Shown piece after piece: positions 4,516-19,331 of a stretch of 25,186 bases of DNA. The translations under genes and the position numbers were made by a program. A model generated the notes under the pieces. The model saw only the letters and a list, made by a program, of their open reading frames with translations, was not told where the DNA came from and ran no database searches. Location: IMG/VR virus record IMGVR_UViG_3300037587_000312, positions 96,552 to 121,737 of that record; one strand, written 5' to 3'. Each line of letters starts with the position of its first letter. Position 1 is the first letter of the stretch. The DNA is from a virus.

Positions 4516-5271
4516 TTAATTTGGATAGGGTATAACTACCCAATTCATAAGTGTATTGTAGACTTCGATAGAGATCTCTCCCTTATTATAACAATCTTTG
4601 GCAACAGTCTTGATATATTTTTCTTTAACCTTTTTATAGGCAGCGAATGCCTGTTCGGGAGAGCTATATGTACCTATGTAGTTTTGGCCCCCACCTTCCC
4701 CTACTTTCGCCTTAAACTTGTTCCTAGACTCAGACACACCTACAGGGTATTTACCCCTAGCCTTATTCCTGCTGGAAAGAAGTGCGTTAATCCGATGGGG
4801 TATGAATTCGCAGGTCGCTTCAGAATACACCATTGAACCCGGCTGGCGCAAATCCTTATCAACGTGAAAACCCTCGATATAATTATCCTCGTACCACCTA
4901 GCATATATCTGAAAATTGTACCATTCCTCACAAACCGTAACACCTCTGCCACCGTAGCGGTGATAGCGGTCATCAGTAATATCGTAACATCTTTCTAGCA
5001 TTCTTTTCCAAACAGCATACGCAGGTTTTTTCTTACAATCAATACTACTGGTGTAAATACCCTCCCCAAAATACCCCACTCCCTGTATGGAGGGTACATA
5101 AGGGTCTTTCACCCCACCTTTACGGAGGCTTCCTGCACCTGTCACGGTTACATACCCTGTATTGGTGAATTCAACGACCACTTTGTAACTATCTATATAC
5201 TCAAGAACCCTACAATCACCATAATTATTAGTTTCAAAAACATCTCCAATCTTAATCCGTAATTTAACCAT
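4516..5271 (-). CDS. Putative homing endonuclease, HNH-like with AP2 domain
   Basis: This 251-residue protein has the layout of phage HNH/AP2 endonuclease-like genes. The N-terminal beta-rich segment (GDVFETNNYGDCRVLEY) is followed by the nuclease-like block WKRMLERCYD, YGGRGVTVCEEW and EGFHVDKD, and near residues 178-218 by an AP2-type DNA-binding module (GVSESRNKFKAKV, then YIGTYSSPEQAFAAYK). The classical H-N-H residues are only partly evident, so catalytic activity is uncertain. It lies between the radical SAM gene and a small hypothetical gene without disrupting either, as expected for a free-standing mobile endonuclease. AGGAG lies 9-10 bases before the ATG. Confidence 0.8.
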   Translation of the reverse strand: MVKLRIKIGDVFETNNYGDCRVLEYIDSYKVVVEFTNTGYVTVTGAGSLRKGGVKDPYVPSIQGVGYFGEGIYTSSIDCKKKPAYAVWKRMLERCYDITDDRYHRYGGRGVTVCEEWYNFQIYARWYEDNYIEGFHVDKDLRQPGSMVYSEATCEFIPHRINALLSSRNKARGKYPVGVSESRNKFKAKVGEGGGQNYIGTYSSPEQAFAAYKKVKEKYIKTVAKDCYNKGEISIEVYNTLMNWVVIPYPN

Positions 5272-5291
5272 ACCTCACTGCTCCTGCCGTA

Positions 5292-5486
5292 CTAATACAT
5301 CAAAAACCATCCTACGAAATAACTGATTTGCTTATCTTCATTCATGATACTGAGTTTCGGATCTTCTGTCAACCGTTTATACGCCTTTTTCATATTCGGG
5401 CGTGTAACTTTCTTCAAACCCCGTTGATCCCTGCGGTTGGTTGTCTTCTGGTGAATGAGATCAGAGAAATATTCAAATTCCATCAT
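5292..5486 (-). CDS. Hypothetical basic small protein
   Basis: A 64-residue protein starting MMEFEYFSDLIHQ, rich in Lys/Arg in the middle (TTNRRDQRGLKK, RPNMKKAYKR) and ending in a hydrophobic tail (YFVGWFLMY). The frame can be opened further upstream to 5507, but AGGA lies about 8-10 bases before ATG 5486 and that ATG overlaps the stop of the MazG-like gene, so I favour 5486. The second ATG (5483) is equally possible. No family recognised. Confidence 0.65.
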   Translation of the reverse strand: MMEFEYFSDLIHQKTTNRRDQRGLKKVTRPNMKKAYKRLTEDPKLSIMNEDKQISYFVGWFLMY

Positions 5487-5767
5487 GTGTTCTTTCCTTC
5501 GTACCAAAATTCAAGTTTTTTAAGCTTCCTTTTCTTAGCTTCATATAGCTTATGACTACAAAGTATTCCTTGGTCTACAAGAATATCAACTATTGCAAGA
5601 AAATCCCCCACCTCTTGCTCGAGTTCAGAGCGGTTGGTGTGTTCCCTTCCTTTATCTGGGTGATATGATCCAATCCCAAACCGTTGTATCTTACAACAGA
5701 TCTGAGCTACTTCGCAAGCCTCCTCTGTGAGGAGGGTTATGTTAGTGTTTAGATTATTAAATTTCAT
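5483..5767 (-). CDS. MazG-like nucleotide pyrophosphohydrolase
   Basis: A 94-residue all-helical protein with the MazG/dUTPase-like metal-binding signature: EExxE at 15-19 (LLTEEACEVAQ) and ExxD at 52-55 (LEQEVGDFLAIVDIL). Family members hydrolyse NTPs or dNTPs to the monophosphate plus pyrophosphate, or degrade signalling nucleotides. Short versions such as this act as dimers or tetramers. In phages they adjust nucleotide pools or (p)ppGpp-linked host responses, but the substrate here is unknown. Start and stop both overlap neighbours by a few bases (10 nt upstream, ATGATG downstream). Confidence 0.85.
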   Translation of the reverse strand: MKFNNLNTNITLLTEEACEVAQICCKIQRFGIGSYHPDKGREHTNRSELEQEVGDFLAIVDILVDQGILCSHKLYEAKKRKLKKLEFWYEGKNT

Positions 5768-5990
5768 CCCCTAGTTCCTTCTGCATACGGGCTAGACAGT
5801 CATTGTGAATTATCATCTTTTTACCGCTCTGCAATCTCAGTGCTGTAGTAAAACTATCATCTAGTTCAAAACCACAGTGATCACAACGGGTTTGTGATAT
5901 TACCCAAGTTTCTACTATAGTTTTATCTGTAATAGGCTCAGAGAGTATCTCAAACTCTTGCTTTACGACACGTTTAAAATAAGCTTTCAT
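5757..5990 (-). CDS. Small zinc-knuckle protein
   Basis: A 77-residue protein with a CxxC (RCDHCGFEL, near residues 36-39) and a later HxxC-type pair (IIHNDCLARM), a plausible CCHC or CCCC zinc-binding arrangement. It begins MKAYFKRVVKQEFE. No enzymatic motif is visible. It is embedded in a run of overlapping small genes (4 nt with the upstream gene, 11 nt with the MazG-like gene). Function unknown. Confidence 0.7.
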   Translation of the reverse strand: MKAYFKRVVKQEFEILSEPITDKTIVETWVISQTRCDHCGFELDDSFTTALRLQSGKKMIIHNDCLARMQKELGDEI

Positions 5991-6190
5991 CGTTCAAACA
6001 CCATACTAAGAGATGTTTTGCCCATAGACAAAATACTATAAATCTCCCTATTAAGTGGATATCTCTTGAACTCTCTTTCGAGATGTTCTTGACATTCCTC
6101 CATACTCATTAGAGTAGTATCCTGAACCCAGACCTCCTCCTCTTTTCGGATTACCATTCCGACTTCAATCTCAAAATTAAGCTCCATCAT
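5987..6190 (-). CDS. Hypothetical small acidic protein
   Basis: A 67-residue soluble protein beginning MMELNFEIEVGMVIRKEEE. Its first ATG overlaps the stop of the RlmN-like gene and its own stop overlaps the zinc-knuckle gene. A helical, Glu-rich middle (SMEECQEHLEREFKRY) is visible and there is no recognisable motif. The overlap pattern supports it as a genuine operon member. Confidence 0.65.
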   Translation of the reverse strand: MMELNFEIEVGMVIRKEEEVWVQDTTLMSMEECQEHLEREFKRYPLNREIYSILSMGKTSLSMVFER

Positions 6191-7017
6191 TCAATCTCCG
6201 TAAACATACCACATGATGCTGATTCCTTTTTCCCCTTACTAACCTGCCACTTAATGCCAACACCACCTCGCTGGAATAACTTATAAAGTGTATTCAACTG
6301 AGGGATAGAAGGTCTTTCGTAAACACTTTCAGGGTGTGGATTAAACTCAAGCATCCTGATTGAACAGCCTGTTTCCTTTGCAACTCTTAAGACAGATAGT
6401 GCATCTGTTAGAGAGTCATTCAACCCTTTGATGGGGGTATAATGAATAAACTTATCCCCTTCCCAACAGTTCATCGCAAAAATCTGATTCTCTATATCAC
6501 CGCCACGGGGGATTATAAGATCTCTCTGGAACGGGTTGCCACTGTGGAGAGAATAGAAGATCCGTACAGGTGCATCCTTAATCCGGCGGTTGATTGACCC
6601 AAGTTTACCCTCATCAGGAACAATAGTAGAGATATCTACTTCAATAACCATTAGGTAAGCCGTAATCATGTTCGTTGCTAGGATTGTTTGGGCTGTATCA
6701 ATTAACGGGTCACCCATGCCCATCCAGCACAGCTTGAACCGATCTTTACGAGACACGAATGTACATTCATCAATAGCTTCGTCTACATTAGCCGCTATAT
6801 CTCGAGCACTCAGCTTCTTGAAAGGCATTTCCATTTCAGTCAAGTGGCAGAATACACATTTCTTAGGACAACCCACAGAACTTGAGATGAAGATACTGGT
6901 TACAGTTTCATCCCGCTCACAGTAGTTACCCTGCTCATCGCGGAAAGCTGAGCGTACTTGTTTGATTACAGTTTCAGACCCATCATCATGAATCTTCTTG
7001 AATATTTTGTCGCTCAT
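6187..7017 (-). CDS. RlmN-like radical SAM protein (rRNA/tRNA C2-adenosine methyltransferase family)
   Basis: The order of motifs follows RlmN/Cfr: SSSVGCPKKCVFCH with the cluster cysteines C50, C54 and C57, then GMGDPL, STIVPDEGKL, SLHSGNPFQRDLIIP, and a C-terminal SCGMF whose C269 aligns with the methyl-accepting Cys355 of E. coli RlmN. RlmN methylates A2503 of 23S rRNA and A37 of some tRNAs. The position matching E. coli Cys118 (seven residues before the first cluster Cys) is F43, so the second catalytic cysteine appears absent. At 276 residues it is shorter than RlmN (about 384) and lacks most of the N-terminal RNA-binding domain. A changed substrate or chemistry is likely. The start overlaps the upstream gene by about 30 nt. 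Confidence 0.85.
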   Translation of the reverse strand: MSDKIFKKIHDDGSETVIKQVRSAFRDEQGNYCERDETVTSIFISSSVGCPKKCVFCHLTEMEMPFKKLSARDIAANVDEAIDECTFVSRKDRFKLCWMGMGDPLIDTAQTILATNMITAYLMVIEVDISTIVPDEGKLGSINRRIKDAPVRIFYSLHSGNPFQRDLIIPRGGDIENQIFAMNCWEGDKFIHYTPIKGLNDSLTDALSVLRVAKETGCSIRMLEFNPHPESVYERPSIPQLNTLYKLFQRGGVGIKWQVSKGKKESASCGMFTEIE

Positions 7018-7192
7018 ATTCTTCCCCCAGTGATTTGAAATAATTATCAGTACACTCAGTTAACCACCCGTCATTTGCCTTCCAAGTACTCGCGTAAAAT
7101 TCCCTTACTATATCCTCTAAAGAGGGTTCAGGGCCATATTTTTCTTCAGTTACCTGAGGCTCAATTTTCTTCAATCTATTAAGATCCACCAT
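6986..7192 (-). CDS. Hypothetical small phage protein
   Basis: The frame opens at 7210, but GGGAG sits eight bases before ATG 7192, so I place the start there (MVDLNRLKKIEPQ, 68 residues). The protein is mostly helical and acidic at the C-terminus (LGEEYERQNIQEDS). It overlaps the HNH gene by 14 nt on one side and the RlmN-like gene by about 32 nt on the other. No family recognised. Confidence 0.65.
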   Translation of the reverse strand: MVDLNRLKKIEPQVTEEKYGPEPSLEDIVREFYASTWKANDGWLTECTDNYFKSLGEEYERQNIQEDS

Positions 7193-7823
7193 AAAATTTC
7201 TCCCATTCATATAAATTCTTAAATTTGCTGTAGTATTTCTCCCCGTCTAGGAGCAAATGCCATTTTGTCCAATCTTGTTGGATATTAACACAGGTTTGTT
7301 TGGCTTGCAACACCTCTGCTCTCTGAATAAGCTCTTTGTGGTACTGGTGATTCGGGAACATCTCACAGTAGAGGTAAGCTGTCCCAAAGAAAGGGTCCAG
7401 TTTAGCCTCTTTAAGGATTCGCATACCTCGCTCAACGATAATCTTAGCGTTAGCTCGGCTCACACCCTGTTTGGTTCCCATAAGAGCCTTAAGCCTCCCT
7501 GAATGGATGAAGCTATGACAAGCATGGCAGAGAGGTACTATCTCCTTGATCCTCATGGACCCTTCTTCATAATCTATGGAATAGTCCTCATGAGCCTCTA
7601 GGTGTTGCTTAAAGAGTGCATCATTTTTATGTGTTCCACAAGCCATACAACGGAAATTATTATCTTCATAAGCTTTCTTGCGAGTCTTGTCCCACCAATA
7701 TTTACCCTTAACTTCTCGGGGAGCTAACCCATGTAGAGGTTTAGGTAAATTTGGATGGGTCAACAGTTCCGGCCTAACAATTTTTGGTGGAAGAACTTGA
7801 ATTTTAGGTTTACTTGGTTTCAT
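7179..7823 (-). CDS. HNH-type endonuclease-like protein
   Basis: The 214-residue protein has a treble-clef zinc arrangement. C59-M-A-C62 is followed by QHLEAHEDYSIDY (H74, H78) and PLCHACHSFIHSGR (C99, C102, H103, H107). This is the CxxC...H...CxxC...H pattern of phage HNH nucleases. The C-terminal half (residues 110-214) is helical and has no further known domain. It may be a homing enzyme or a phage nuclease that degrades host DNA or processes phage DNA. Unlike the AP2 and NUMOD4 proteins in this window, it has no visible DNA-targeting module. The start overlaps the stop of the GHKL ATPase gene as ATGA. Confidence 0.75.
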   Translation of the reverse strand: MKPSKPKIQVLPPKIVRPELLTHPNLPKPLHGLAPREVKGKYWWDKTRKKAYEDNNFRCMACGTHKNDALFKQHLEAHEDYSIDYEEGSMRIKEIVPLCHACHSFIHSGRLKALMGTKQGVSRANAKIIVERGMRILKEAKLDPFFGTAYLYCEMFPNHQYHKELIQRAEVLQAKQTCVNIQQDWTKWHLLLDGEKYYSKFKNLYEWEKFYGGS

Positions 7824-8956
7824 ATATCTCTCTCTTCAAGTTCTTTAATCATTGACTTAATATCCTGTACAGCACGGCTACGCATATGCTTCTTATTCTT
7901 TATTAAGAATGCTGCAAGCATTTCTTTTACAGGGACTAGTTTTACTGATACTAATTTCTCTAGTTGTTTATTATCAAACAGTTGAAAGAAAGCTTTAGTA
8001 ATTGTTATAGGCTTCAAGCCAGCAGCAATCGCCCGACCAGTGATAACTTTGATTTTACCAACATTCCAATCTTTATTGATCGGATAGGCATCCTTCCCAT
8101 ATTTATCATAGAACCGCTTAATAGAACCTTCTGAAATCTCCTTAGATATCTCAGAAGGTTCTGAATCATAGTAGCCGCCACTGGACCCAATGTTCACATA
8201 ATCATTTACATCAGGACATTCCTCCGATGCCAGATCCATGAGCAGTTCATACTCACCGGCTCGGTTGAGAAGTGAAGTAGCTTCATATCCGATAGTGAAA
8301 GCACTGACTGTCTGACGATCACGATCCAGATTTACAATATCAGGCGCAAAGTTGTAGCTGAAGGCATAGTCCTTTCCTCCGACAGGTTCAAGTCTGCAAA
8401 CAAATAATCCACCAACGTACACACTAGGGGTATTATCTTCAAAAGCATAAGATTCCCCGTCATCGGCTACAATACAGAGAGAATCCTTTATAAGGGTACG
8501 GTTTTGTACCGTATCAATATCTTCACGAGACAACCCATGAATAGTAAACCGGACAGTCTCAAATTCATCAGAGAACGCATCATCAGTAATTCCAATAGTC
8601 AGGCACTCAGCCTCTAATTGAGGGTGTGGCTTCATAAAAGGAATCCATCGTTGAGATCCATTCTTGATAGTAACCCCAATATTCTGACGAGCCAATACCA
8701 ACAAGGCTAATTTATAACCCTCTCCGAATTTACCTCTCATATCAGGGTTATCTGCTTTAGATGTATTACCTAATAGGAGGCTATCCTTCTCCATCACACC
8801 TTTGTGACTCTCGATGCTGATACTACCAGTCTCGTAGCTAATATCAACACTATAATCCCCTTGATCCATAGCATTCTGGATGATCTCTCGGATAGCCTCC
8901 CAAGTCCCCCAGTGTGAAATGTAATTCCGAGATAGTGGTAATGCAATGTATTCCAT
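7820..8956 (-). CDS. GHKL-family ATPase (HSP90/histidine-kinase fold)
   Basis: The N-terminal 100 residues contain the Bergerat-fold signatures: the N-box AIREIIQNAMDQ (E24, N28, D31) and the glycine-rich lid GKFGEGYKLALLVLAR (75-90). The usual DxGxG box is degenerate (around SHKGVM). A transducer-like middle follows (NLDRDRQTV near residues 213-221), then a Lys-rich C-terminus. GHKL proteins couple ATP binding to clamp closure (MutL, MORC, HSP90, GyrB). The 378-residue length with no kinase phosphoacceptor domain argues against a histidine kinase. The function in phage is unknown. It is the first gene after the hairpin/promoter element at 8973-9031, with AAGGAG before its ATG, so it likely heads its own transcription unit. 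Confidence 0.85.
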   Translation of the reverse strand: MEYIALPLSRNYISHWGTWEAIREIIQNAMDQGDYSVDISYETGSISIESHKGVMEKDSLLLGNTSKADNPDMRGKFGEGYKLALLVLARQNIGVTIKNGSQRWIPFMKPHPQLEAECLTIGITDDAFSDEFETVRFTIHGLSREDIDTVQNRTLIKDSLCIVADDGESYAFEDNTPSVYVGGLFVCRLEPVGGKDYAFSYNFAPDIVNLDRDRQTVSAFTIGYEATSLLNRAGEYELLMDLASEECPDVNDYVNIGSSGGYYDSEPSEISKEISEGSIKRFYDKYGKDAYPINKDWNVGKIKVITGRAIAAGLKPITITKAFFQLFDNKQLEKLVSVKLVPVKEMLAAFLIKNKKHMRSRAVQDIKSMIKELEERDI

Positions 8957-8972
8957 AATGTTCTCCTTAAAC

Positions 8973-9031
8973 TAAAAAGCCGTTGTTTCAAAGTATGTGT
9001 GTAGAATACTCGAAACAACGGCTCTTGTCTA
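8973..9031 (-). promoter_or_regulatory. Terminator hairpin overlapping a sigma70-like promoter
   Basis: An inverted repeat of 12 bp (8978-8989 and 9012-9023, AGCCGTTGTTTC/GAAACAACGGCT) is extended by an inner AGTAT/ATACT stem. In the minus direction it is followed by a T run (8974-8978). It lies directly after the NAMPT-like gene, so it reads as an intrinsic terminator. The same bases contain TAGACA (9026-9031), a 17-bp spacer and TATTCT (9003-9008), a promoter-like pair firing toward the GHKL gene. The -10 lies at the hairpin apex. Terminator: strong; promoter: plausible, supported by the second copy at 19817-19869. Confidence 0.75.
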
Positions 9032-9044
9032 TAACTTATTTATC

Positions 9045-10598
9045 TTATTCTCCTCGTTGTGAGCGCAGGCGAATCTCAGCCCAAGGTGTTTCTCTCACCA
9101 TCTTACTATCTCGGGCGATAATTGCAAGCTCACCAGTAAGAGCCTCCTCCTCAGTCTGGTTCTCCCACAACCGATACTCTGAACCTTCGCGGCTAACCCG
9201 TAGCAGACCACAAGCAGACTTCTTAGCACCTAGTGCAGTCTTAGGATTCTTCTGCATCGAGACACCTTCACCATTAACAATACTGTGTGTACCTTTAATA
9301 GCAATGCTAAATGAGTCACGAGATGCATCCTTAAGGAATCCCCAAGATCCAGTTCCCATCAGCACGTTTGAAACACACCACCCCTGAGAGACCATAGTCT
9401 CATAGATATTCCACTGCATCTGTGGAGTGATTGCCTCTCCATAAATCAGACCAACTTTAGGATTCAGAATCCGCAGACCTTCATCATTAGTGGTTCCACC
9501 GAAAGTATCCCACAACAACCACAATGCACCCTTACGTTCTGCTGCTGATGCACCATCTGGATCACCACAGATAACCTCAAGAGGTGTCTTAGGTGAAGAG
9601 TCAGGACGGAATACAGCCTTACACAGACCAAAAGAGTCAGGTTGACGAGCAAGGATTTCATCCTTAACCATTGGCAGACCTGTCTCCATCAAACCGAAGA
9701 AATCTTCACTGTCAGCTACATAACTGACAATACCTGTTGGGTAGAGATTAGTATAAACATCTCGTAGTGATTCTACTTCAGCCTGAAGAGGGAATTCATT
9801 GTATCCCAAATTCTTCCGGTAGTAAGCAATCCGTTGAGTTGCAGTGGCATGCTCAAAAGCGTTTACACTCACACCGAGACATTCTTTGTCGCTATCCCCG
9901 TTGTAGTACTCTTCAATACCATCAATCGCCCAAAGGGTATCAGTTCCAATACCAAACAACAAGTGAGCCATAGCGGAGATCATTGAATCCTCCTGTCCAC
10001 GGTGCCCACGACCAGCGAAACAGTGATTTGCAATAGCCAACCATTCAGTAGGAGCGCCACATTTCTCTGCCCAGAACTTACTAGTCTTAAAGTACTGCTC
10101 TGTTACAGTTGCAGCGTTAGCCATAGGCCAATACATACAGGATAGAAATGTCTCACAGTAATTGGTTACCCAATAAAACTCTGGAACAGTATTCCGTACA
10201 GTGAAAACAGGGATACCCATATTTACCTTACAGCCTTCCGGCAAAGCGCGAACTTCAACTGGAAGATATTGCAAGTCATGCAAAGCAGCCATAGCTGCGA
10301 TCTGCTCGTCACCGTGATCTGGCCCAAGATAGTTCTTAACTCGACGAGTGAACTTCTTCATAACCTTCTCTTTCGGTAGAGAAAAGAATGTATCTTCCCA
10401 TTGTTGGAATAGGATCTTTGTTACCATCTCAATACCAAAGTTAACCATCTTACCATCATAATGCTCACGCAATACGTTAGCTAGTCGATCACTTCGTGGC
10501 GTGGCATTAGCTGAAACAGATTCAGTGCCGTTGATATACTGGGAAATGTGGCCCAGTTTATAACCATCTACAATTACATTTTGTGGGATATTTTTCAT
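9045..10598 (-). CDS. NAMPT-like transferase, probable nicotinamide ADP-ribose transferase (Namat) of NARP1
   Basis: The 517-residue protein is a clear nicotinamide phosphoribosyltransferase homologue. Landmarks are DGYKLGH (11-17), GRGHRG (196-201), GTDT (218-221), the catalytic-His region VNAFEHATAT (H250), VADSED, FRPDSS and GGTTNDEGLRILNPKVGLIYGE. Canonical NAMPT/NadV makes NMN from nicotinamide and PRPP. In the published NARP1 pathway a close homologue, Namat, instead joins nicotinamide to ADP-ribose pyrophosphate to give NAD+ directly. A Prs-like gene lies three genes upstream and no NMN adenylyltransferase is in this window, which fits Namat, but sequence alone cannot exclude NadV. The frame opens at 10616. 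AGGAG seven bases before ATG 10598 sets the start. The gene ends at a strong hairpin. Confidence 0.92.
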   Translation of the reverse strand: MKNIPQNVIVDGYKLGHISQYINGTESVSANATPRSDRLANVLREHYDGKMVNFGIEMVTKILFQQWEDTFFSLPKEKVMKKFTRRVKNYLGPDHGDEQIAAMAALHDLQYLPVEVRALPEGCKVNMGIPVFTVRNTVPEFYWVTNYCETFLSCMYWPMANAATVTEQYFKTSKFWAEKCGAPTEWLAIANHCFAGRGHRGQEDSMISAMAHLLFGIGTDTLWAIDGIEEYYNGDSDKECLGVSVNAFEHATATQRIAYYRKNLGYNEFPLQAEVESLRDVYTNLYPTGIVSYVADSEDFFGLMETGLPMVKDEILARQPDSFGLCKAVFRPDSSPKTPLEVICGDPDGASAAERKGALWLLWDTFGGTTNDEGLRILNPKVGLIYGEAITPQMQWNIYETMVSQGWCVSNVLMGTGSWGFLKDASRDSFSIAIKGTHSIVNGEGVSMQKNPKTALGAKKSACGLLRVSREGSEYRLWENQTEEEALTGELAIIARDSKMVRETPWAEIRLRSQRGE

Positions 10599-10599
10599 T

Positions 10600-10932
10600 T
10601 TATTTCTCCTTCTCATCAGTATTATCTAGTGTAACTCGTAATTCATTCAGCCGTGTATGTACTTCCTTCAATTTACCCTGAAGTATTGCTTTTGCATACT
10701 CCGCAACCTCGAGACCAACATAGCACCCAGACATATCAATACCTTGTCCTGATCCATCACTGTGTTTGTGGACATGACTATAGTATCCGATATTAAAGTT
10801 TTCAAACCCTCCACTGTCAGGACGGTCATTAGTAATTTCATGGATTGTTTTATCAGCCTCTACTAAAGCTTTCTCGAGCCGACTTTTTAATTTGAACAGG
10901 AATTCCACTTCTGCAAAATCACTTTGTAACAT
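10600..10932 (-). CDS. Hypothetical helical protein in NAD operon
   Basis: A 110-residue protein beginning MLQSDFAEVEFLFKLK. Two long predicted helices (residues 5-33 and 73-100) flank a Gly/His-rich middle (YYSHVHKHSDGSGQG). No family recognised. It sits between the macro-domain gene (stop/start overlap at 10932) and the NAMPT-like gene (one base apart), so it is co-transcribed with the NAD genes. Whether it takes part in that pathway is unknown. A small adaptor or an unrelated passenger are both possible. Confidence 0.75.
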   Translation of the reverse strand: MLQSDFAEVEFLFKLKSRLEKALVEADKTIHEITNDRPDSGGFENFNIGYYSHVHKHSDGSGQGIDMSGCYVGLEVAEYAKAILQGKLKEVHTRLNELRVTLDNTDEKEK

Positions 10933-11459
10933 TAGGTATCTCCTTGGAGTGAATACATACGATCCTTTGCTGGGATCTCGTTTGGTTTCAGTACGTAAAT
11001 AGTAACGTCATACCCTTTGTCTGTCAACTCTTCTTTGATGATATTCTCGATAATATTCCAATCGCCGCCAGCGAGCTTAGACCCTATTTTAGGGAGACCG
11101 ATTGTTGCAGCAGTCTTGAAATTTCCGAAGCCCATTCTCAAGGAGGATCGGAGAGCATCATAATCAAGATCCATCCGCCCTTCTTTTCTACCCCACCAAG
11201 CGTACTGAGAATATAGGTTCAACACATGGATGCCACCCTCTGGATAAAAGGCATGATACCCGTATGAAAATCCTCCGAGTTTCTCTTTATCCCCTTTTAC
11301 AGTCGCTTGGTCTGCCTCCCAAGCTTCAGGGAACTCCTTAGCGATCAAAGGTGCAATACCACTCTTCATTACATTAAAGCAGTTGCATCCATGACCAATG
11401 ACATCAACTTCCCCATCAAGTGCAGCTTGGATCAGGCTCTTTACTTTATACTTTGACAT
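10932..11459 (-). CDS. Macro-domain protein (ADP-ribose / ADPR-1''-phosphate binding or hydrolysing)
   Basis: The 175-residue protein shows the macro-domain order: VDVIGHGCNCFNVMKSGIA (adenosine and distal-ribose binding loop), FPEAWEAD, GGIHVLNLYSQYAW, and TIGLPKIGSKLAGGDW with IGSKLAGGD as the second binding loop. The GCNCFNVMxSGIA sequence resembles Poa1p-like ADP-ribose-1''-phosphate phosphatases. Placement between the Prs-like and NAMPT-like genes suggests it handles ADP-ribose or a derivative that feeds the pathway (inference). Deinococcus RNA-repair operons also include a macro protein, so a repair role is an alternative. The frame opens at 11510, but TAGGAGGAAAT before ATG 11459 fixes the start. 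Confidence 0.9.
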   Translation of the reverse strand: MSKYKVKSLIQAALDGEVDVIGHGCNCFNVMKSGIAPLIAKEFPEAWEADQATVKGDKEKLGGFSYGYHAFYPEGGIHVLNLYSQYAWWGRKEGRMDLDYDALRSSLRMGFGNFKTAATIGLPKIGSKLAGGDWNIIENIIKEELTDKGYDVTIYVLKPNEIPAKDRMYSLQGDT

Positions 11460-12036
11460 ATTTCCTCCTAAACTTATGACCACAATGGGATTTTCTTTTC
11501 CCGTGAACAACAGCCGATACTAATCTAAAATCGAACCCTTTCTCAGCCATTTCTTTGTTCCCATGTAAAGAGTATAGGTAATTCCCCTCCATATCAAGAA
11601 CTTCTACAGGTGACTCATACCTAGCTGAATCTTTTCCTATCTTGATAACCTTAAGGCCAATACTTATGGCATGCGTTTGATTTTCACTATTGGTACACCA
11701 TTCTAGATTAGAGATATAATTATTTTCCTTATCCCCATCGATATGATTAACCTGCTCTTTTCCTTTAGGATTCGCTATGAATGTCTGGGCGACTAACCTG
11801 TGAACCTTCCTTGTAACAGATTTACGGTTTAATCTCAACCTAATCCTCACATAACCATACTTATCCACTTGTGGTGAAAGCATGTGTCCTTTCAAGACCC
11901 TATCAGGCTTATTATCTGAGTATTGAATAACCCTAGTCACAGATCTTACTGACCCATAAGTAGAAACTTCATAGGCTCCTTGGAATTCCTCAATCGGCAA
12001 CCATACCTCAGACTTTGATGTAGTTAACTCTGTCAC
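11446..12036 (-). CDS. HNH homing endonuclease with NUMOD4 domain
   Basis: The protein starts with a NUMOD4 motif (EVWLPIEEFQGAYEVSTYG), then the HNH core VHRLVAQTFIANP, VNHIDGDKENNY and SNLEWCT, and a C-terminal NUMOD1-like DNA-binding tail. This is the I-HmuI/phage homing endonuclease layout. I prefer GTG 12036, preceded by GAGGAG four bases upstream. ATG 12057 in the same frame adds seven residues but has no clear ribosome binding site. The gene overlaps the last ~29 bp of the Prs-like gene and about 14 bp of the macro-domain gene, an insertion between two functional partners. It probably spreads by cutting alleles lacking it. Confidence 0.88.
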   Translation of the reverse strand: MTELTTSKSEVWLPIEEFQGAYEVSTYGSVRSVTRVIQYSDNKPDRVLKGHMLSPQVDKYGYVRIRLRLNRKSVTRKVHRLVAQTFIANPKGKEQVNHIDGDKENNYISNLEWCTNSENQTHAISIGLKVIKIGKDSARYESPVEVLDMEGNYLYSLHGNKEMAEKGFDFRLVSAVVHGKRKSHCGHKFRRKYVKV

Positions 12037-12850
12037 GCAACTCCTCTGGAACTTCATCTTGGTCTATAAAACAGTTAGCAACATAAAGTTCATCAATTTT
12101 TCCCATTAAGGAATCAAAACCATCAGGAAGAATGGCGTGGGTTACGTATAGAATAACCTTAGCCGCACCTTTCTCCCGAAGCTTGTCTGAAAGGAACATA
12201 AATGTACCCCCTTTGTCAGCAATATCATCTACAATAACACACACCTTACCAGACACATCACCATAAACTTCAGTCCCTGTGATCTTCCCTGTAGCCGCAT
12301 TACGAACTTTATCAGCTCGAACTACCTCACACCCGCCATACATCCAAGCAAGATCGAGAGTCTTCTTATTAGCACCAGCATCGGGTGATACCAGAACTGT
12401 ATTACCATCAAGGATAATATCTGAAAGATCCTGACAGGCGGGAATAATATTCTTTTGTGGACGATTCACACAATTATCCAGAAGAGCAACCCCTACATCG
12501 CTGTGACAGTCCCAGATTTGGACGCTATCAAACTTTAATCCGTTAATGAGGTCAGTGCATACCTTCAAGGCTAACGCCTCACCAGAGGCACATACGCGAT
12601 CCTGACGGGCATACGGAAGATAAGGCATAACAAGGTTAATTACCTTAGGGTTTCGATCACGGCGGATAGCATCTGTCAAAAGTAGCAATGTCATCAGATC
12701 ATCTGAATTACGTACATGGGCTTCGATACGACAAACCTCATTTCCGTAAATAGGTGCTTGTGATACTTTAACCTGTACTTCTCCTCCACTAAAATTAAAA
12801 ATCTTAACGGATGCCTCTTTCTCGTTGAAATATACCTTAAACTTTTCCAT
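12008..12850 (-). CDS. PRPP-synthetase-like kinase, probable ADP-ribose pyrophosphate synthetase (Adps) of NARP1
   Basis: Ribose-phosphate pyrophosphokinase family motifs are clear: MPYLPYARQDR (75-85, ATP binding), SPDAGANKK (155-163) and the PRPP-type loop VCVIVDDIADKGGT (203-216). It is 280 residues, shorter than bacterial Prs (about 315). The canonical flexible DLHxxQIQGFF segment is replaced by DCHSDVGVALLD (114-125), near the sugar site. Canonical Prs pyrophosphorylates ribose-5-phosphate. NARP1 Adps uses ADP-ribose. Its operon with a NAMPT-like and a macro-domain gene favours Adps, but this is inference. ATG 12850 has AGGAG seven bases upstream; ATG 12856 overlaps the upstream stop but is only one base from the AGGAG. 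Confidence 0.9.
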   Translation of the reverse strand: MEKFKVYFNEKEASVKIFNFSGGEVQVKVSQAPIYGNEVCRIEAHVRNSDDLMTLLLLTDAIRRDRNPKVINLVMPYLPYARQDRVCASGEALALKVCTDLINGLKFDSVQIWDCHSDVGVALLDNCVNRPQKNIIPACQDLSDIILDGNTVLVSPDAGANKKTLDLAWMYGGCEVVRADKVRNAATGKITGTEVYGDVSGKVCVIVDDIADKGGTFMFLSDKLREKGAAKVILYVTHAILPDGFDSLMGKIDELYVANCFIDQDEVPEELRDRVNYIKV

Positions 12851-12852
12851 TT

Positions 12853-13386
12853 TCATTCTCCTGATATTAATTTAGTAGCGGAAGCAGTAATCTCTTGTTT
12901 TAGGAACCTATAACGAACTTCGTTCAAATCAATCGGTGTGTAATCAGTTTGCTCCAAGCATATATTAAGATACCTAGGATCGTCAAGTACATGCCCGTGC
13001 GTGTGACCATGAATATTCTTCTTACCTCGCAGTTCATCCGTATGAATAGGTGCATGTGTGATCCAGAACTCCTTGTGCTTATACATAGAGTGGATCTCAA
13101 CAAAAACCTCCAGCATATCACTGATACTAGGTCTTGTTTTGTTATCCGTATCATGATTACCCAAGATTAACACTTTCCGCCCTAGAAGGCCAGCAATAAT
13201 CTCTAGGGATGCTGAGTCGAATGCAATATCACCACCAAAAATAATCTTATCACGCTTAGTCACAACACGGTTGTAATTATCCAAGATTATTTTTGTTCGA
13301 TGCTCAACAGTCTCAAAATCTGGCTGGAATTTAAGTATATTCTTATGACCAATGTGCCAGTCCGAGGTAAAATATAGATTAGCCAT
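12853..13386 (-). CDS. Calcineurin-like metallophosphoesterase
   Basis: All five metal-ligand blocks are present: SDWHIGH (D9, H11), GGDIAF (D53), GNHD (N77, H78), THAP (H111) and HGHTH (126-130). The 177-residue length fits the small single-domain phage/bacterial phosphoesterases whose substrates range from cyclic nucleotides to phosphodiesters and nucleotide phosphates. The substrate is unknown. The gene overlaps the start of the Prs-like gene, so it may be expressed with the NAD genes and could trim ADP-ribose derivatives, or may simply be a neighbour. No membrane segment or signal peptide. Confidence 0.9.
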   Translation of the reverse strand: MANLYFTSDWHIGHKNILKFQPDFETVEHRTKIILDNYNRVVTKRDKIIFGGDIAFDSASLEIIAGLLGRKVLILGNHDTDNKTRPSISDMLEVFVEIHSMYKHKEFWITHAPIHTDELRGKKNIHGHTHGHVLDDPRYLNICLEQTDYTPIDLNEVRYRFLKQEITASATKLISGE

Positions 13387-13726
13387 CTACTCCCCCATAT
13401 AATCTATTAGCTTCATCTGCATCTATCAGGTCTCGAGTCAACCTATTAATCTTAGCTAGATCAAAACGGTGAGCATCACCTCCGCAGACAAACACTGACC
13501 CAACACTACGATAGTGTGTAAATTCCTTAACCTCTGTACCGAATTTATCTTGACATATCTGTGCCGCTTGAAGTTGCTCTTTTTCTTTAGAACTGAGTCC
13601 ACTAAATCCCCAAATAAGGAGTCCAACAAACACAGGGACAATAATGGAGAGTATAATTCTATTAACTGGTTGATCTATACCAATAGAACTGAATGCATTA
13701 TCGATAAAAGTTTTGATCTTTTCCAT
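13379..13726 (-). CDS. Small inner-membrane protein
   Basis: The protein has one transmembrane helix near residues 23-43 (IILSIIVPVFVGLLIWGF). A short N-terminal amphipathic stretch precedes it, and a soluble domain of about 70 residues with two cysteines (QICQDKFG and VFVCGGDAHRF) follows. ATG 13726 lies seven bases from AGGAG and is preferred over ATG 13729, which lies four bases away. The soluble part could sit in the periplasm, where the cysteine pair might form a disulfide. It overlaps the phosphoesterase gene by 8 nt. No family recognised; superinfection exclusion or lysis-related roles are possible but unsupported. Confidence 0.75.
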   Translation of the reverse strand: MEKIKTFIDNAFSSIGIDQPVNRIILSIIVPVFVGLLIWGFSGLSSKEKEQLQAAQICQDKFGTEVKEFTHYRSVGSVFVCGGDAHRFDLAKINRLTRDLIDADEANRLYGGVDG

Positions 13727-13738
13727 CATATTTCTCCT

Positions 13739-13915
13739 CTATTTCGGACCCGTGTAAGCTGGGGCTGGGATTTTAATCATTGCTTGATAGAACCAATCAC
13801 CAGAACTTACAACCATACCTCCTTGAGGTGTCCAGCCTAGACGTATGTGGCGATTAACCTCAAATTCAAAATTCTCAATAACCCTATCCTTGATAGTCTT
13901 GTATTCAATCATCAT
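13739..13915 (-). CDS. DUF1737-like small protein
   Basis: This frame begins with two Met codons (MMIEYKTIKDRVIENFE) after AAGGAG and ends TAG 13 bp before the next gene. The 58-residue product has the pattern of the DUF1737 family: a helix with spaced hydrophobics, then GWTPQGGMVVSSGDWFYQAMIK. These short proteins occur widely in bacteria and phages and have no established function. The downstream gene's ribosome binding site follows its stop directly, so translation is probably coupled. Confidence 0.75.
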   Translation of the reverse strand: MMIEYKTIKDRVIENFEFEVNRHIRLGWTPQGGMVVSSGDWFYQAMIKIPAPAYTGPK

Positions 13916-13932
13916 CTTACTCCTTTATTTTG

Positions 13933-13995
13933 ATCCCGCAAAAGGGATTGAGCAAAGCTCAACAGCTGGGTGGCCATCTTGGTGGTGTCCACCCA
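13933..13995 (-). repeat. Three consecutive short inverted repeats at a gene end
   Basis: Reading the minus strand across the end of the 111-residue gene there are three stem-loops: TGGGTGG/CCACCCA (13967-13973 with 13989-13995), TTGAGC/GCTCAA (13948-13953 with 13957-13962, loop of three) and ATCCC/GGGAT (13933-13937 with 13944-13948). The stop codon lies in the middle stem. No T run follows, so a classical terminator is not supported. A structured RNA, translational-coupling or processing site is possible. Confidence 0.45.
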
Positions 13996-14294
13996 ATACC
14001 CTGTAAGGCTTGAGTATATAGCAACTCTTGGTCTCTTTCGTTTGCCCAAAGAGACCCTTTCTCTCTGGCTTCTTTAATAGCTTCAAGTAAAAGGAAGGTC
14101 TCTGCCTCATCGTTCGTTACAGCAAAAGATATATCAGCTCGAAGAGGTATCCCTGTTACAGGATCTACCAAGAAAACCTGATCTTGTTTAATGCTGTTCA
14201 TAATAGTTATCACTTTTACATCATCAATGATACCTGCACGGACATCTAAGACCTTACCTTTTGAACAATATAGTTTACCAAACCAATCAATCAT
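13959..14294 (-). CDS. Hypothetical phage protein
   Basis: The frame extends to 14348, but GAAGGAG five bases before ATG 14294 and an ATGA overlap with the upstream stop set the start at MIDWFGKLYCSKGK (111 residues). It is beta-rich at the N-terminus (VLDVRAGIIDDVKVITIMNS) with a helical acidic stretch (NDEAETFLLLEAIKEAREK), ending in a Pro/Trp-rich tail. No known family. The 3' end lies within three small hairpins. Confidence 0.7.
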   Translation of the reverse strand: MIDWFGKLYCSKGKVLDVRAGIIDDVKVITIMNSIKQDQVFLVDPVTGIPLRADISFAVTNDEAETFLLLEAIKEAREKGSLWANERDQELLYTQALQGIGWTPPRWPPSC

Positions 14295-14527
14295 TTCATC
14301 TCCTTCATTTGTTCCTCTGTTGGTAACAGGTGAGATGTATCTTCGCATACTCCATCCACAATTTCAAATGTTAATGGTAAACCTTGATACTCAAGGATCT
14401 GCCAGAGATGAGCATCCTTAACTTTCTCTATTGATCCACACCAACACGCCATAGGTTCATCAAAAGGATGGTCTAATAGTTCACCCATCCATTGGTTACC
14501 TTTAGTCTTTTTGATTTGTACTATCAC
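14291..14527 (-). CDS. Hypothetical small protein with GTG start
   Basis: A 78-residue protein whose start codon is GTG (14527), seven bases after GAGG. It reads MIVQIKKTKGNQWMGE and contains CWCGSIEKV (CxC near residues 28-30) and later an acidic helix (PTEEQMKEMK). It overlaps the upstream gene by 26 nt and the downstream start by 4 nt. No family recognised. Confidence 0.65.
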   Translation of the reverse strand: MIVQIKKTKGNQWMGELLDHPFDEPMACWCGSIEKVKDAHLWQILEYQGLPLTFEIVDGVCEDTSHLLPTEEQMKEMK

Positions 14528-14801
14528 GTTTATACCTCACTCTTCCCAATGCGTATCCGATTTCATTAGAGGAATACATCCCCTCCCAGAACCGAACATC
14601 ATGTACCTGTATACCACAGATCTGAGTCCACATCTTTTTAGCTTCAACAATGTAGATATATCCACTAGACCACTCGTGAACATATGGTCCCCATAATTCA
14701 GTAGCATTATATTCCTTGAGGACAGCGGGAAAATCCCGCTCGTCCTCTACTACAACCAGAAGCCTTTGGTCCTTTGGTGGGCTATACTCAGAAATCGACA
14801 T
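14502..14801 (-). CDS. Hypothetical phage protein
   Basis: A 99-residue protein beginning MSISEYSPPKDQRLLVVVED. Aromatic-rich beta segments (LWGPYVHEWSSGYIYIVEAKK) are visible and no known motif. Its start overlaps the 3' end of the Pnkp gene by 14 nt and has no strong ribosome binding site, so expression may depend on translation of pnkp. Function unknown. Confidence 0.7.
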   Translation of the reverse strand: MSISEYSPPKDQRLLVVVEDERDFPAVLKEYNATELWGPYVHEWSSGYIYIVEAKKMWTQICGIQVHDVRFWEGMYSSNEIGYALGRVRYKRDSTNQKD

Positions 14802-15705
14802 AAGGATCTGCTACTTGTATTACATTGACCCCTAGCAACCTCAGGTGATTTGAAACTTGCGGTCTATCATCGACCCAAGCACAGATATTGTACTTCTTCT
14901 CCATCTCCCAAAGCATACGCTCTTTGATGACGAAATCTTTCTCAAAGTTGCCCTCAGGACGGATGTAGAAATCATCATATAGAAGATCACCTGCATCAAG
15001 CCACTTTTTAGTTAGTTCCTCCGCAGAGCCATCACGACCTGTCGCGATAATGATCTCATAATCCTTAACTACGAAACCATCTAACATATCGCAAACTTCA
15101 CGACGATAATGGTCCTGATCAACCTTCATCCAATCAAAAGGTCCACGGTTATGCATTGTAGCGAGTGTTCCATCTACATCGAAGACGATTGCATCAGGGA
15201 GGCTGTCATTTTGGACATACTTACGAGCACCTTTGTACTCAAGCCATTGCTGATACTGACGATAGATAACCAAATGACCTACACCACCAAACCGTTGTGC
15301 ATCACGTTTCCACAGAGTGTTCAGATCAACTTCAAACTCTTTGAATTCTACTGAATAGCCCATTTCTGTCAGTTTCAGTACCATTGCGTTACGGTTCTTA
15401 GGATTAAGATTCGTTTCACAAATGATGATGTTCTGACCATTATCAAAAGCCTCTTGGATCTGACGATCCTGAATAACGGTTACTTTTTCCTCATTCTGAC
15501 GCTTGAATTTATAACGAGTCCAATCTTTTACGCCCTTGTTTTGAAGGATATCAGTGAAACGGATAACATCTCGCTCGATGACTACCCAAGGATTCTTATC
15601 AGTATCAATATCATTTAGTGGTTGGGTCCGAACGAACTCATCAACCCAAGTGTTTTTGCCGCATGCACTGCAGCCGATTGTCATAATTGCTTTTAGTTTA
15701 TTCAT
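14788..15705 (-). CDS. pseT: Polynucleotide 5'-kinase / 3'-phosphatase (T4 Pnkp-like)
   Basis: The 305-residue protein matches T4 polynucleotide kinase in length and domain order. The kinase P-loop is GCSACGKNTW (11-20, K17), with ERDVIRF (D46, R49) matching T4 D35/R38, and LWKRDAQRF as the lid arginine region. The C-terminal HAD phosphatase has DVDGT (D176, D178) and a distal DDRP (VDDRPQ). T4 Pnkp heals cut tRNAs by phosphorylating the 5'-OH and removing the 2',3'-cyclic phosphate, so that RNA ligase can seal them. The usual P-loop Ser after Lys is Asn18, a small change of unknown effect. GGAGG precedes the ATG. An RNA ligase gene lies 2 kb upstream. Confidence 0.95.
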   Translation of the reverse strand: MNKLKAIMTIGCSACGKNTWVDEFVRTQPLNDIDTDKNPWVVIERDVIRFTDILQNKGVKDWTRYKFKRQNEEKVTVIQDRQIQEAFDNGQNIIICETNLNPKNRNAMVLKLTEMGYSVEFKEFEVDLNTLWKRDAQRFGGVGHLVIYRQYQQWLEYKGARKYVQNDSLPDAIVFDVDGTLATMHNRGPFDWMKVDQDHYRREVCDMLDGFVVKDYEIIIATGRDGSAEELTKKWLDAGDLLYDDFYIRPEGNFEKDFVIKERMLWEMEKKYNICAWVDDRPQVSNHLRLLGVNVIQVADPYVDF

Positions 15706-15905
15706 TTAGCCTCCATAAATTTTTCACATGCCTCAATATATACTTCTGAAGCACCGTTGACCTGTTGTTCAAGGTACTCTTGGAATCCTTTTGAGACTTT
15801 ATTAGATCCCCAGTTATTGGCCACATAGTATTTCTTGTGGACACGGAGAATCACCTCTAGGGTTCTCTTATTTTCTTTTAATCTTATTAGCTTCTCGGAA
15901 TCCAT
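15702..15905 (-). CDS. Hypothetical helical protein
   Basis: The frame can begin at GTG 15917, but ATG 15905 overlaps the upstream stop (TAATG) with GGGA about seven bases before, giving MDSEKLIRLKENKRT (67 residues). The protein is helical, with a basic first half and an acidic last part (VYIEACEKFMEAK). The stop overlaps the Pnkp start. No family recognised. Confidence 0.65.
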   Translation of the reverse strand: MDSEKLIRLKENKRTLEVILRVHKKYYVANNWGSNKVSKGFQEYLEQQVNGASEVYIEACEKFMEAK

Positions 15906-16225
15906 TATTTTTCCCACTTAGGTTTAAATTCACGTACCGTTTTAGTAACCTTCCTCGCTCCAGATCCATCATGACCTGACCACTCAAACCCATATTTCTC
16001 ATGGTATTTGATCTTACCTCGTAAGGTTACAGGTTCGAAATCTAAATCATGAAATTTCATAGCTAACTCTATCATTCGTAGATAGAGATTATCAGGTGTT
16101 TCCTTATCCACTTTGAGTGTGATACGTCCACTACAAGGATTGATTGTAATTTTATTCCGTTTACTCTCAACCAAAAGAATATCTAGGTGACGATCCTCTT
16201 TAGGACAACATACTTGATTAACCAT
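15905..16225 (-). CDS. Hypothetical phage protein
   Basis: A 106-residue soluble protein beginning MVNQVCCPKEDRH, with a CC pair near the N-terminus, a beta-strand pattern (RITLKVDKETPDN) and a basic tail (KVTKTVREFKPKWEK). No recognised domain. It follows the zinc-ribbon mini-gene by two bases. The tail could contact nucleic acid, but nothing stronger can be said. Confidence 0.7.
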   Translation of the reverse strand: MVNQVCCPKEDRHLDILLVESKRNKITINPCSGRITLKVDKETPDNLYLRMIELAMKFHDLDFEPVTLRGKIKYHEKYGFEWSGHDGSGARKVTKTVREFKPKWEK

Positions 16226-16227
16226 GA

Positions 16228-16380
16228 TTAATTCCCCTTCATAAAAGTTTTACAGTTACAATTCTTGCAGACTCTGAGAAGACGATTTTTCTTATCGTTT
16301 CTCAGCTCCTGCTTCTTATTTACCGTTAAACAACGATAGCAGATGTACACTTTATCAGCTGGCTCCTTCCAAGTCAACAT
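16228..16380 (-). CDS. Zinc-ribbon mini-protein
   Basis: A 50-residue frame starting at ATG 16380 after AGAGGA and ending TAA just before the next start. It has two CxxC knuckles, ICYRCLTV (C14, C17) and VCKNCNCK (C38, C41), spaced about 21 residues apart by a basic linker (KKQELRNDKKNRLLR). A four-Cys zinc ribbon binding nucleic acid or protein is the natural reading. The gene begins inside the 3' end of the Tad2-like gene (26 bp overlap). Confidence 0.7.
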   Translation of the reverse strand: MLTWKEPADKVYICYRCLTVNKKQELRNDKKNRLLRVCKNCNCKTFMKGN

Positions 16381-16696
16381 TATTTATTTCCTCTTGAGCC
16401 TTGAGATAATTATGCCATTTACGCCCATTCCCGAGACCGTAATACCATGCTGGTTCACGTTTTCTCATCCAAGGATAATACCAACCATTCCAAATTTCGG
16501 GGTAGTTATCATACAAATCCCAATCTTCAGCTACAAGGTCAATATCCTTAGGATACCAGCCACCACTCCACCCGCTTCTATACGGGTTATAGCGACTGTC
16601 TTCCACATACCTGACGAACTGTTTTGGTGAATGCCAAGCTATGCGCCTAACAGGGTATCCTGCTATAGCGAGTAACATGGCCTCTTCATAGGTCAT
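16355..16696 (-). CDS. DUF2829 / Tad2-like protein (candidate Thoeris inhibitor)
   Basis: Residues 1-62 match the DUF2829 pattern: MTYEEAMLLAIAGYPVRRIAW (start of helix then KxxRxxW), a loop (KQFVRYVEDS), and the closing D-x-VAEDWDLYD. DUF2829 proteins include Tad2, an anti-Thoeris sponge that sequesters the signal 1''-3' gcADPR and other cyclic nucleotides. The remaining ~50 residues are very Trp/Tyr-rich and not typical of short Tad2. Sequestration of a nucleotide signal is inferred from the family. Residues of the binding pocket cannot be checked here. It overlaps the upstream gene as ATGA, with no clear ribosome binding site of its own. Confidence 0.75.
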   Translation of the reverse strand: MTYEEAMLLAIAGYPVRRIAWHSPKQFVRYVEDSRYNPYRSGWSGGWYPKDIDLVAEDWDLYDNYPEIWNGWYYPWMRKREPAWYYGLGNGRKWHNYLKAQEEINNVDLEGAS

Positions 16697-17035: not shown

Positions 17036-17704
17036 ATGTTCCATATTCTATACCAAACCACAAACCTAGTCAACAATAAACTCTATATTGGTGTTCATTC
17101 TACCGAAGATCTTGGGGATGGTTACCTTGGTTCAGGGGTTCATCTCCAACGTGCTGTGAAGTATTATGGCAGAGAGAACTTTGAACGTCAAGTACTTTGT
17201 TTCACTGATTCTGCCGAAGATGCTTATGAAATTGAGGAGCTTATTGTTGACCTAGAGTTCATATCCCGAAAAGATACTTATAACCTAGCTATTGGTGGTA
17301 TTGGAGGAGTGCCTTCCCAGTTTGTTTCTCAGGAAACTAGACAAAAGATGTCTGAGAGTAAGAAAGAATCCTATCAAGGGGAAAATCATCCGCGTTTTGG
17401 GACTAAACATACCCAAGAAACCAAAGATAGGATTTCCTTAACTAAGACAGGTGTAAAACTTTCAGAGGAGGTCATACAAAAGTTGAGTGAGCGTAATAGC
17501 GGTAGCGGAAACCCTAACTTTTCCGGTTACTGGTATACACCCCAAGGTACGTTCGATTCTTGCCTGAAAGCTGGGAAAGCGAATGGGGTTAACCGAAAAA
17601 CTATAGTTAATCGATGTAAACCAACCGAGCCAATCCAAAGACCCCTGAAGTTACGAGGTAGGGCTTGGAAAGAACTCGGTTGGTGGTTCGAACCTAAGGA
17701 TTAA
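17036..17704 (+). CDS. GIY-YIG homing endonuclease (Seg-like)
   Basis: The 222-residue protein has an N-terminal GIY-YIG nuclease core (YQTTNLVNNKLYIGVHST, with a variant of GIY, then GSG, YYGRENFERQV and EELIV with the catalytic Glu candidate). NUMOD3-like repeats follow (SQETRQKMSESKK and HTQETKDRISLTKTG), then a C-terminal DNA-binding tail. It resembles phage T4 Seg enzymes. It runs opposite to all other genes, overlaps the stop of the RNA ligase tail-to-tail by 4 bp, and has its own promoter. It is likely a mobile insertion between the RNA ligase and the next gene. The ribosome binding site is weak (GAGA). Confidence 0.88.
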   Translation: MFHILYQTTNLVNNKLYIGVHSTEDLGDGYLGSGVHLQRAVKYYGRENFERQVLCFTDSAEDAYEIEELIVDLEFISRKDTYNLAIGGIGGVPSQFVSQETRQKMSESKKESYQGENHPRFGTKHTQETKDRISLTKTGVKLSEEVIQKLSERNSGSGNPNFSGYWYTPQGTFDSCLKAGKANGVNRKTIVNRCKPTEPIQRPLKLRGRAWKELGWWFEPKD

Positions 17705-19029: not shown

Positions 19030-19331
19030 TATGTAATCTCCTCTAATATTCTTAATCGTTGTGCCAATACCCACATACCGCCTTGGGATTCAGGTCGTTT
19101 GTGATACTCAAAATCCTCCACCTCCACCTTGTACCATTTACGATCTTTCTCAGACAGGTGAGGGGCTTCAGGACGGAGAGTACAATGCCATCCCGGCCTA
19201 TGAGCATAACCTTTAGTTGGGATATCCTCAGCATCATACCAAACATTCAGTGACAGTCTCTGTCTACGGTTGATGAACAATGGCCCAATGCTACCGTCTT
19301 TCTTAACACTAAACAGTTTGTATCCTATCAC
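19029..19331 (-). CDS. Conserved hypothetical phage protein
   Basis: This 100-residue protein has the pattern MIGYKLFSVKKDGSIGPLFI, GYAHRPGWHCTLRPEAPHLS and KRPESQGGMWVLAQRLRIL. I recognise it as a widespread but uncharacterised phage/bacterial protein family. It is strongly conserved in character, soluble, with an HRPGWHC stretch that could bind a metal or ligand. It ends TAATG with the RNA ligase start. No role is known. Confidence 0.8.
   Translation of the reverse strand: MIGYKLFSVKKDGSIGPLFINRRQRLSLNVWYDAEDIPTKGYAHRPGWHCTLRPEAPHLSEKDRKWYKVEVEDFEYHKRPESQGGMWVLAQRLRILEEIT

Follow-up and report, generated by a model that had tools for sequence, protein, structure and literature searches.

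The final part of a 121.7-kb phage contig, a stretch of 25,186 nucleotides (IMG/VR record IMGVR_UViG_3300037587_000312, positions 96,552–121,737; here called the window), carries what appears to be a NARP1-type operon for the rebuilding of nicotinamide adenine dinucleotide (NAD+), in which a macro-domain protein would act as an accessory enzyme, with the supply of ADP-ribose (ADPR) being on balance the main role that we favor for it. NARP1, which consists of Adps and Namat, is known from phage SpbetaL1 and others (PMC12774641). The identity and order of the genes, their operon-like layout, the recurrent linkage of the macro gene, and the subgroup to which its product belongs were computed, and from these we infer the enzyme activities and the macro substrate.

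The genes form a closely packed run on the minus strand, in the order phosphoesterase, Adps-like, NUMOD4-HNH, macro, orphan, and Namat-like. The calcineurin-like phosphoesterase gene (12853–13386; phrog_547 1.8e-55, Metallophos 2.7e-5), a possible accessory that is part of the same run, overlaps by 4 nt the start of the Adps-like gene (12008–12856; 282 residues, ribosome-binding site AGGAGA), a member of the Prs family (phrog_619, E 1.5e-78; Pfam Pribosyltran_N) proposed to encode an ADP-ribose pyrophosphate synthetase. The 3' end of the latter is in turn overlapped over 50 nt by the homing endonuclease gene (11446–12057; Pfam NUMOD4 4.6e-14, HNH_3 1e-10), which lies between the Adps-like and macro genes and leaves the C terminus of the Adps-like protein retained. 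An HNH gene is also found in the Adps–Namat interval of loci L001, L003, and L008, marking a recurrent homing site. The macro-domain gene (10932–11459; 175 residues, AGGAGG, phrog_335 4.7e-53) is followed by an orphan gene (10600–10932; 110 residues, AAGGAGA), for which no match was found in Pfam, PHROGs, INPHARED (tblastn), or viral contigs, and then by the Namat-like gene (9045–10598; phrog_448 1.5e-147), the product of which is a putative nicotinamide ADP-ribose transferase. Good ribosome-binding sites precede the Adps-like, macro, orphan, and Namat-like genes, and a strong terminator-like hairpin followed by TTTTT stands directly after the last of them (8970–9030; fold −25.9 kcal/mol, z −8.3, matched by 0 of 200 shuffles). 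The genes named in the original prediction are thus present as minus-strand open frames in the order given there, with one HNH gene interrupting them. While the gene calls themselves were borne out, two starts had to be corrected by their ribosome-binding sites: ATG 11459 (AGGAGGAAAT), and not TTG 11510, is the start of the macro gene, and the Namat-like gene more likely begins at ATG 10598 (GAGAAGGAG), which has a better ribosome-binding site, the first ATG being at 10616.

The Adps-like protein contains the motif VDDIADKGGT and has phrog_619 as its best PHROG. Its loop reads DDIADKGGTF, compared to the family norm of DDICDGGRTF, and the active-site residues of the DxH and K/R elements are kept as His118 and Lys183/Arg185. 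The segment DLHxxQIQGFF is missing, as had been noticed from the sequence, with the frame reading DCHSDVGVALLDN at that place, and it is missing as well in those relatives that adjoin Namat-type genes. A Prs with QIQGF was found in none of the 182 Namat-type loci with both genes but in all 17 Nampt-type loci, although this split comes partly from selection, the first 160 loci having been picked by similarity to Namat or Adps. The combination of a GxGG clamp with a QIQGF Prs, which marks canonical (NARP2-like) Nampt salvage, was not found in the window pair.

The closest solved relative of the Namat-like protein is the crystallized Namat of SpbetaL1 (9w5w/9w5x), with an E-value of ~7e-84, whereas HdNadV scores 3.5e-74 and human NAMPT 1e-33. 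The predicted structure likewise has its best fold match in Namat 9w5x (5e-48), ahead of HdNadV and human NAMPT. The catalytic residues His256, Arg337, and Asp226 (equivalents of His, Arg306, and Asp215) are aligned and invariant, and Arg44 of the clamp loop, where Arg, Lys, or Tyr is expected for NARP1, aligns to Arg40 of the SpbetaL1 enzyme, whereas HdNadV has Glu there. The clamp helix, however, reads GSWGFLKDASRD, as opposed to GS[YF]T[YF]Q[YF].TRD in almost all other Namat proteins; with respect to the published motif GSX.X.X.TRD, the aromatic residue at position 3 is present (Trp425), that at position 7 is absent, and the helix is one residue longer. This divergence is common to a whole clade that includes Vibrio phage 1.187.O, Aeromonas phage CC2, Pseudoalteromonas phage H101, L008, and L122, and a helix of the form GSW[GA]FL[KD]..SRD is seen in the window, L001, L002, L003, L008, L010, and L122. 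Because the selectivity clamp is altered throughout this clade, ADPR-pyrophosphate is a predicted donor for the Namat-like protein.

With NARP1 of SpbetaL1 the window pair thus shares the gene families and their proximity (phrog_619 and phrog_448, on one strand and 1.4 kb apart here), the retained catalytic residues, and an Adps that lacks QIQGF. It differs in that macro, HNH, and orphan genes separate the Adps-like and Namat-like genes in the window, and in the Namat clade, which has a tryptophan at the first clamp aromatic, an extra residue, and no second aromatic. The sequence features, including the missing DLHxxQIQGF cue on which the original prediction had relied, sustain the assignment, and the pair is very probably NARP1 with a divergent Namat clamp.

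The macro protein, which carries GCNCFNVM and IGSKLAGGD and has phrog_335 as its best PHROG, is not detected by Pfam PF01661, but it has a profile match to yeast Poa1p at 4.5e-22. The nearest solved folds to its AlphaFold model (pLDDT 89.5) found by Foldseek are those of BT1257, TARG1, Poa1p, the Streptomyces coelicolor macrodomain (5e3b), and the DarG macrodomains, and the profile, the model, and the Foldseek search all place it in the TARG1/Poa1p group. Residues His23, Asn26, Met31, and Gly34 are nearly invariant; His23, Asn26, and Gly34 match Poa1p, and His23 is a residue mutated in Poa1p structures (H23A, 6lfs). Poa1p is an ADPR-1''-phosphate phosphatase (PDB 6lfq–6lfu), similar to the phage protein in its fold and in these three residues but different in Ser30 and Phe152, which are absent in the phage macro protein, with 17–18% identity between the two.

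Linkage of the macro gene to NAD+ rebuilding recurs in many unrelated phages. A phrog_335 macro gene is present in 25 of 50 Namat-bearing phage records, and in 16 of these 25 it lies within 5 kb of the Adps–Namat span, whereas random placement along each record would give 3.1 (P ~9e-10 if the records were independent); all 16 share the strand of NARP1. Within 1 kb, nine were found, with 1.15 expected. When the relatedness of the Namat records was handled by clustering and by a tree, a macro gene within 5 kb was seen in 31 of 127 Namat representatives, which fall into 14 of the 50 clusters formed at 60% identity. On the Namat tree its distribution required no fewer than 16 gains or losses, of which 13 were forced by well-supported branches. 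When the search began from the macro side, 42 of 80 loci had Namat/Nampt or Adps/Prs genes no farther than 10 kb away, in every case on the same strand, a figure biased upward by the origin of five of the six macro queries in NARP1-linked loci; 29 of the 62 clusters formed at 90% identity and 14 of the 43 formed at 60% carried salvage genes. Single-protein scans of viral contigs with Namat, macro, and orphan gave no matches, alignments being required, and a closer sequence set was used for the macro protein, as its alignment A6 was too variable for scanning. The macro gene may stand before, between, or after Adps and Namat, the middle position recurring in ~10 lineages. The earlier description of it as inserted suits a gene that has come and gone at several positions. 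The nearest relative, L008, has a 74-residue C-terminal macro remnant (8102–8323) beside Adps, pointing to gene loss. Control genes of the same records were also found within 5 kb of NARP1: ThyA in 4 of 12 (1.0 expected), NADAR in 3 of 9 (0.7 expected), and the phosphoesterase phrog_547 in 7 of 15 (1.9 expected). RNA-repair kinases (phrog_505) lie near NARP1 in several records, mostly of the PaP1-like group, so the clustering is in part general. Early genes do cluster, yet the macro link is stronger than that of ThyA, phosphoesterase, or NADAR. This recurrent and significant linkage, obtained by comparing the neighborhoods of Adps and Namat homologues, backs the coupling that had been proposed, and the macro protein is probably tied in function to NAD+ rebuilding.

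The same association extends beyond NARP1. Seventeen macro loci carry a canonical Nampt with a QIQGF Prs, and the macro gene is therefore tied to both types of salvage, that is, to phage NAD+ salvage in general. The genes of locus L186 are arranged as Nudix enzyme, SLOG, Nampt, NADAR, macro, HAD, SIR2, and Prs; this operon occupies positions 4565–16058 in one run and has close copies in several other contigs. It resembles the window in having a macro gene of the same family beside an NAD+ salvage gene, whereas its clamp is GMGGKLLQ, its Prs contains DLHADQIQGFF, and Adps is absent. ADPR could enter both routes, either directly through Adps or through the Nudix enzyme and Prs. The link to both routes fits the release of ADPR, but also the clearance of ADPR derivatives as an end in itself.

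NARP1 reverses many NAD+-destroying defenses and requires free ADPR. However, RES-type enzymes leave ADPR-1''-phosphate, cyclizing TIRs leave cyclic ADPR (cADPR), and ADP-ribosyltransferases leave ADPR bound to DNA or protein. In the proposed mechanism, the macro protein would release ADPR from derivatives in which the far ribose is blocked; ADPR-1''-phosphate from RES-type NAD+ phosphorylases, O-acetyl-ADPR, and ADP-ribosylated macromolecules are candidates. Such a release would dispose of a product that is toxic or a dead end and at the same time hand Adps its substrate. Adps would then turn ADPR and ATP into ADPR-pyrophosphate, from which, with nicotinamide, Namat would form NAD+, both reactions having been shown for homologues. 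In phages with canonical Nampt, the freed ADPR could re-enter through the Nudix enzyme and Prs. ADPR-1''-phosphate is the most economical guess for the main macro substrate, though a tentative one, with O-acetyl-ADPR, isomers of cADPR, and ADP-ribosylated DNA or protein as further candidates. The RES-type toxins NatT and MbcT produce ADPR-1''-phosphate and nicotinamide from NAD+ in bacteria (PMC11535050, PMC8883491), and the work on NatT (PMC11535050) answers a doubt, raised in a paper on Pseudomonas phage Adele (PMC12846349), that ADPR-1''-phosphate occurs in bacteria.

Several observations weigh against this assignment of roles. Ser30 and Phe152 of Poa1p are replaced in the macro protein (Val30, Ala130), which is thus not filed as Poa1p-type and could at most be a functional analogue; the clamp of the Namat-like protein departs from the published motif at one of the two helix aromatics; early accessory genes gather near NARP1 in general, as the ThyA, phosphoesterase, and NADAR counts indicate; the macro gene is optional, since 96 of the 127 Namat representatives have no phrog_335 macro gene within 5 kb; macro domains are frequent in phages, with matches in 2,799 of 50,697 records; and Nampt operons without Adps host the macro gene equally, so that it is not specific to NARP1. 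Alternatively, the macro protein could be an independent anti-defense enzyme that destroys ADPR-based signals or counters DarT-like toxins by stripping ADP-ribose from DNA or protein, with the feeding of NARP1 incidental and its location due to the grouping of anti-defense genes by phages. The anti-defense-like character of the window, with Tad2-like, polynucleotide kinase/phosphatase (PNKP), and RNA ligase genes on the same strand and NADAR elsewhere in the genome, speaks for such a role, as do the macro gene's association with Nampt, NADAR, and SIR2 and the close structural relation of its product to DarG and TARG1. We regard it as possible but unlikely, the macro link being tighter and more frequent than those of ThyA, NADAR, and phosphoesterase, and the placement directly between Adps and Namat recurring in ~10 lineages. 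That the macro protein only binds ADPR derivatives, as a sponge or sensor, is distinctly improbable: the catalytic Lys/Asp of TARG1 are not evident by eye in the phage macro alignment, and some phage homologues of RyDEP sequester instead of cutting (PMC13232231), but His23, an active-site residue mutated in Poa1p structures, is nearly invariant in the linked genes.

Canonical salvage, in which the Prs-like protein would make phosphoribosyl pyrophosphate (PRPP) from ribose-5-phosphate and the NAMPT-like protein nicotinamide mononucleotide (NMN), leaving ADPR unused, draws on the divergent clamp helix with its additional residue and missing second aromatic, on the Y396K substitution in SpbetaL1 Namat, which weakens the use of ADPR-pyrophosphate in double mutants (PMC12774641), and on the ability of Namat itself to make NMN from PRPP. 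It is improbable, given the lack of the QIQGF segment present in all 17 Prs proteins of Nampt operons, the retention of Arg44 and Trp425 in the clamp, and a sequence and fold nearest to Namat. No NMN adenylyltransferase was found in the contig, but the search also failed to recover a probable one from a control record: PF01467 detected none in nine records including L186, the Nudix protein of which starts NMNAT-like by eye, making this a weak negative. A further reading is a cycle that starts with NAD+-dependent removal of RNA 2'-phosphate (KptA or sirtuin): the macro protein would recycle the resulting ADPR phosphate, the phosphoesterase would open the cyclic phosphate, and NARP1 would close the cycle. 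This reading is very improbable. The window does hold an RNA ligase, a PNKP, and a phosphoesterase, yeast Poa1p acts on the ADPR phosphate by-product (PMC8883491), and sirtuin-based RNA repair in phages has been proposed (PMC9503650); this role is nevertheless ranked low because a scan of the 80 larger open reading frames of the contig revealed neither KptA nor a SIR2 domain, and repair of the PNKP type requires no NAD+.

The original prediction had presented the macro protein as a third step of the pathway that was not generally recognized; its functional link to the pathway is supported, whereas its novelty is not. That a macro protein feeds ADPR to NARP1 was printed in December 2025 as a guess for the Pakpunavirus Adele (PMC12846349). 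In Adele and PaP1 (locus L005), a phrog_335 macro gene is likewise next to Adps–Namat (PMC12846349), but it lies downstream of Namat, in a gene order other than that of the window, and the Poa1p-like His23, Asn26, and Gly33 noted for Adele (PMC12846349) compare with Ser at position 33 and Val at position 30 here. A second precedent is RyDEP of mycobacteriophage DyoEdafos, a RyR-domain glycosidase of 2'/3'cADPR demonstrated in the laboratory (PMC13232231), which is similarly a third gene within a NARP1 operon and yields linear ADPR. The RyR domain is unrelated to the macro domain, and the macro protein of the window is a putative enzyme; RyDEP demonstrates that a NARP1 operon can include a third enzyme yielding ADPR (PMC13232231). 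Of the 50 Namat records, two had RyR domains, both distant from NARP1. Macro, prs, and a NAMPT-like gene are also listed side by side for Barba19A (PMC6715854), and the authors of a survey of phage NAD+–ADPr systems made the case that macro domains of phages act against small derivatives of ADPR (PMC9503650).

The new findings are the statistics on the linkage and its repeated appearance across many lineages, the parallel association with Nampt operons, and the Namat clade that carries the tryptophan clamp. We can speculate that an interchangeable ADPR-supplying slot, filled by macro, NADAR, or RyR proteins, serves both Adps–Namat and Nudix–Prs–Nampt, that the macro protein extends the pathway to defenses leaving ADPR-1''-phosphate, such as RES-type NAD+ phosphorylases, and that the tryptophan-clamp clade has a donor preference of its own. 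A linked enzyme freeing ADPR would, if real, broaden the range of defenses that phages can reverse, and the recurrent macro linkage yields ranked phage operons for direct testing.

Other genes of the window surround this run. An HSP90/histidine-kinase-type ATPase-like protein (phrog_6077) is encoded at 7820–8956, just past the NARP1 terminator. On the other side, the minus strand carries the PNKP gene for RNA repair (14788–15705; HAD_PNKP 5.8e-31), a gene of the Tad2-like family of Thoeris anti-defense sponges located 3 kb upstream of NARP1 (16355–16696; Pfam PF11195 3.1e-7, over the cut-off), and the RNA ligase gene (17701–19074; PF09414 1e-8). The NADAR-domain gene is located elsewhere on the same phage contig, at 56695–57093.

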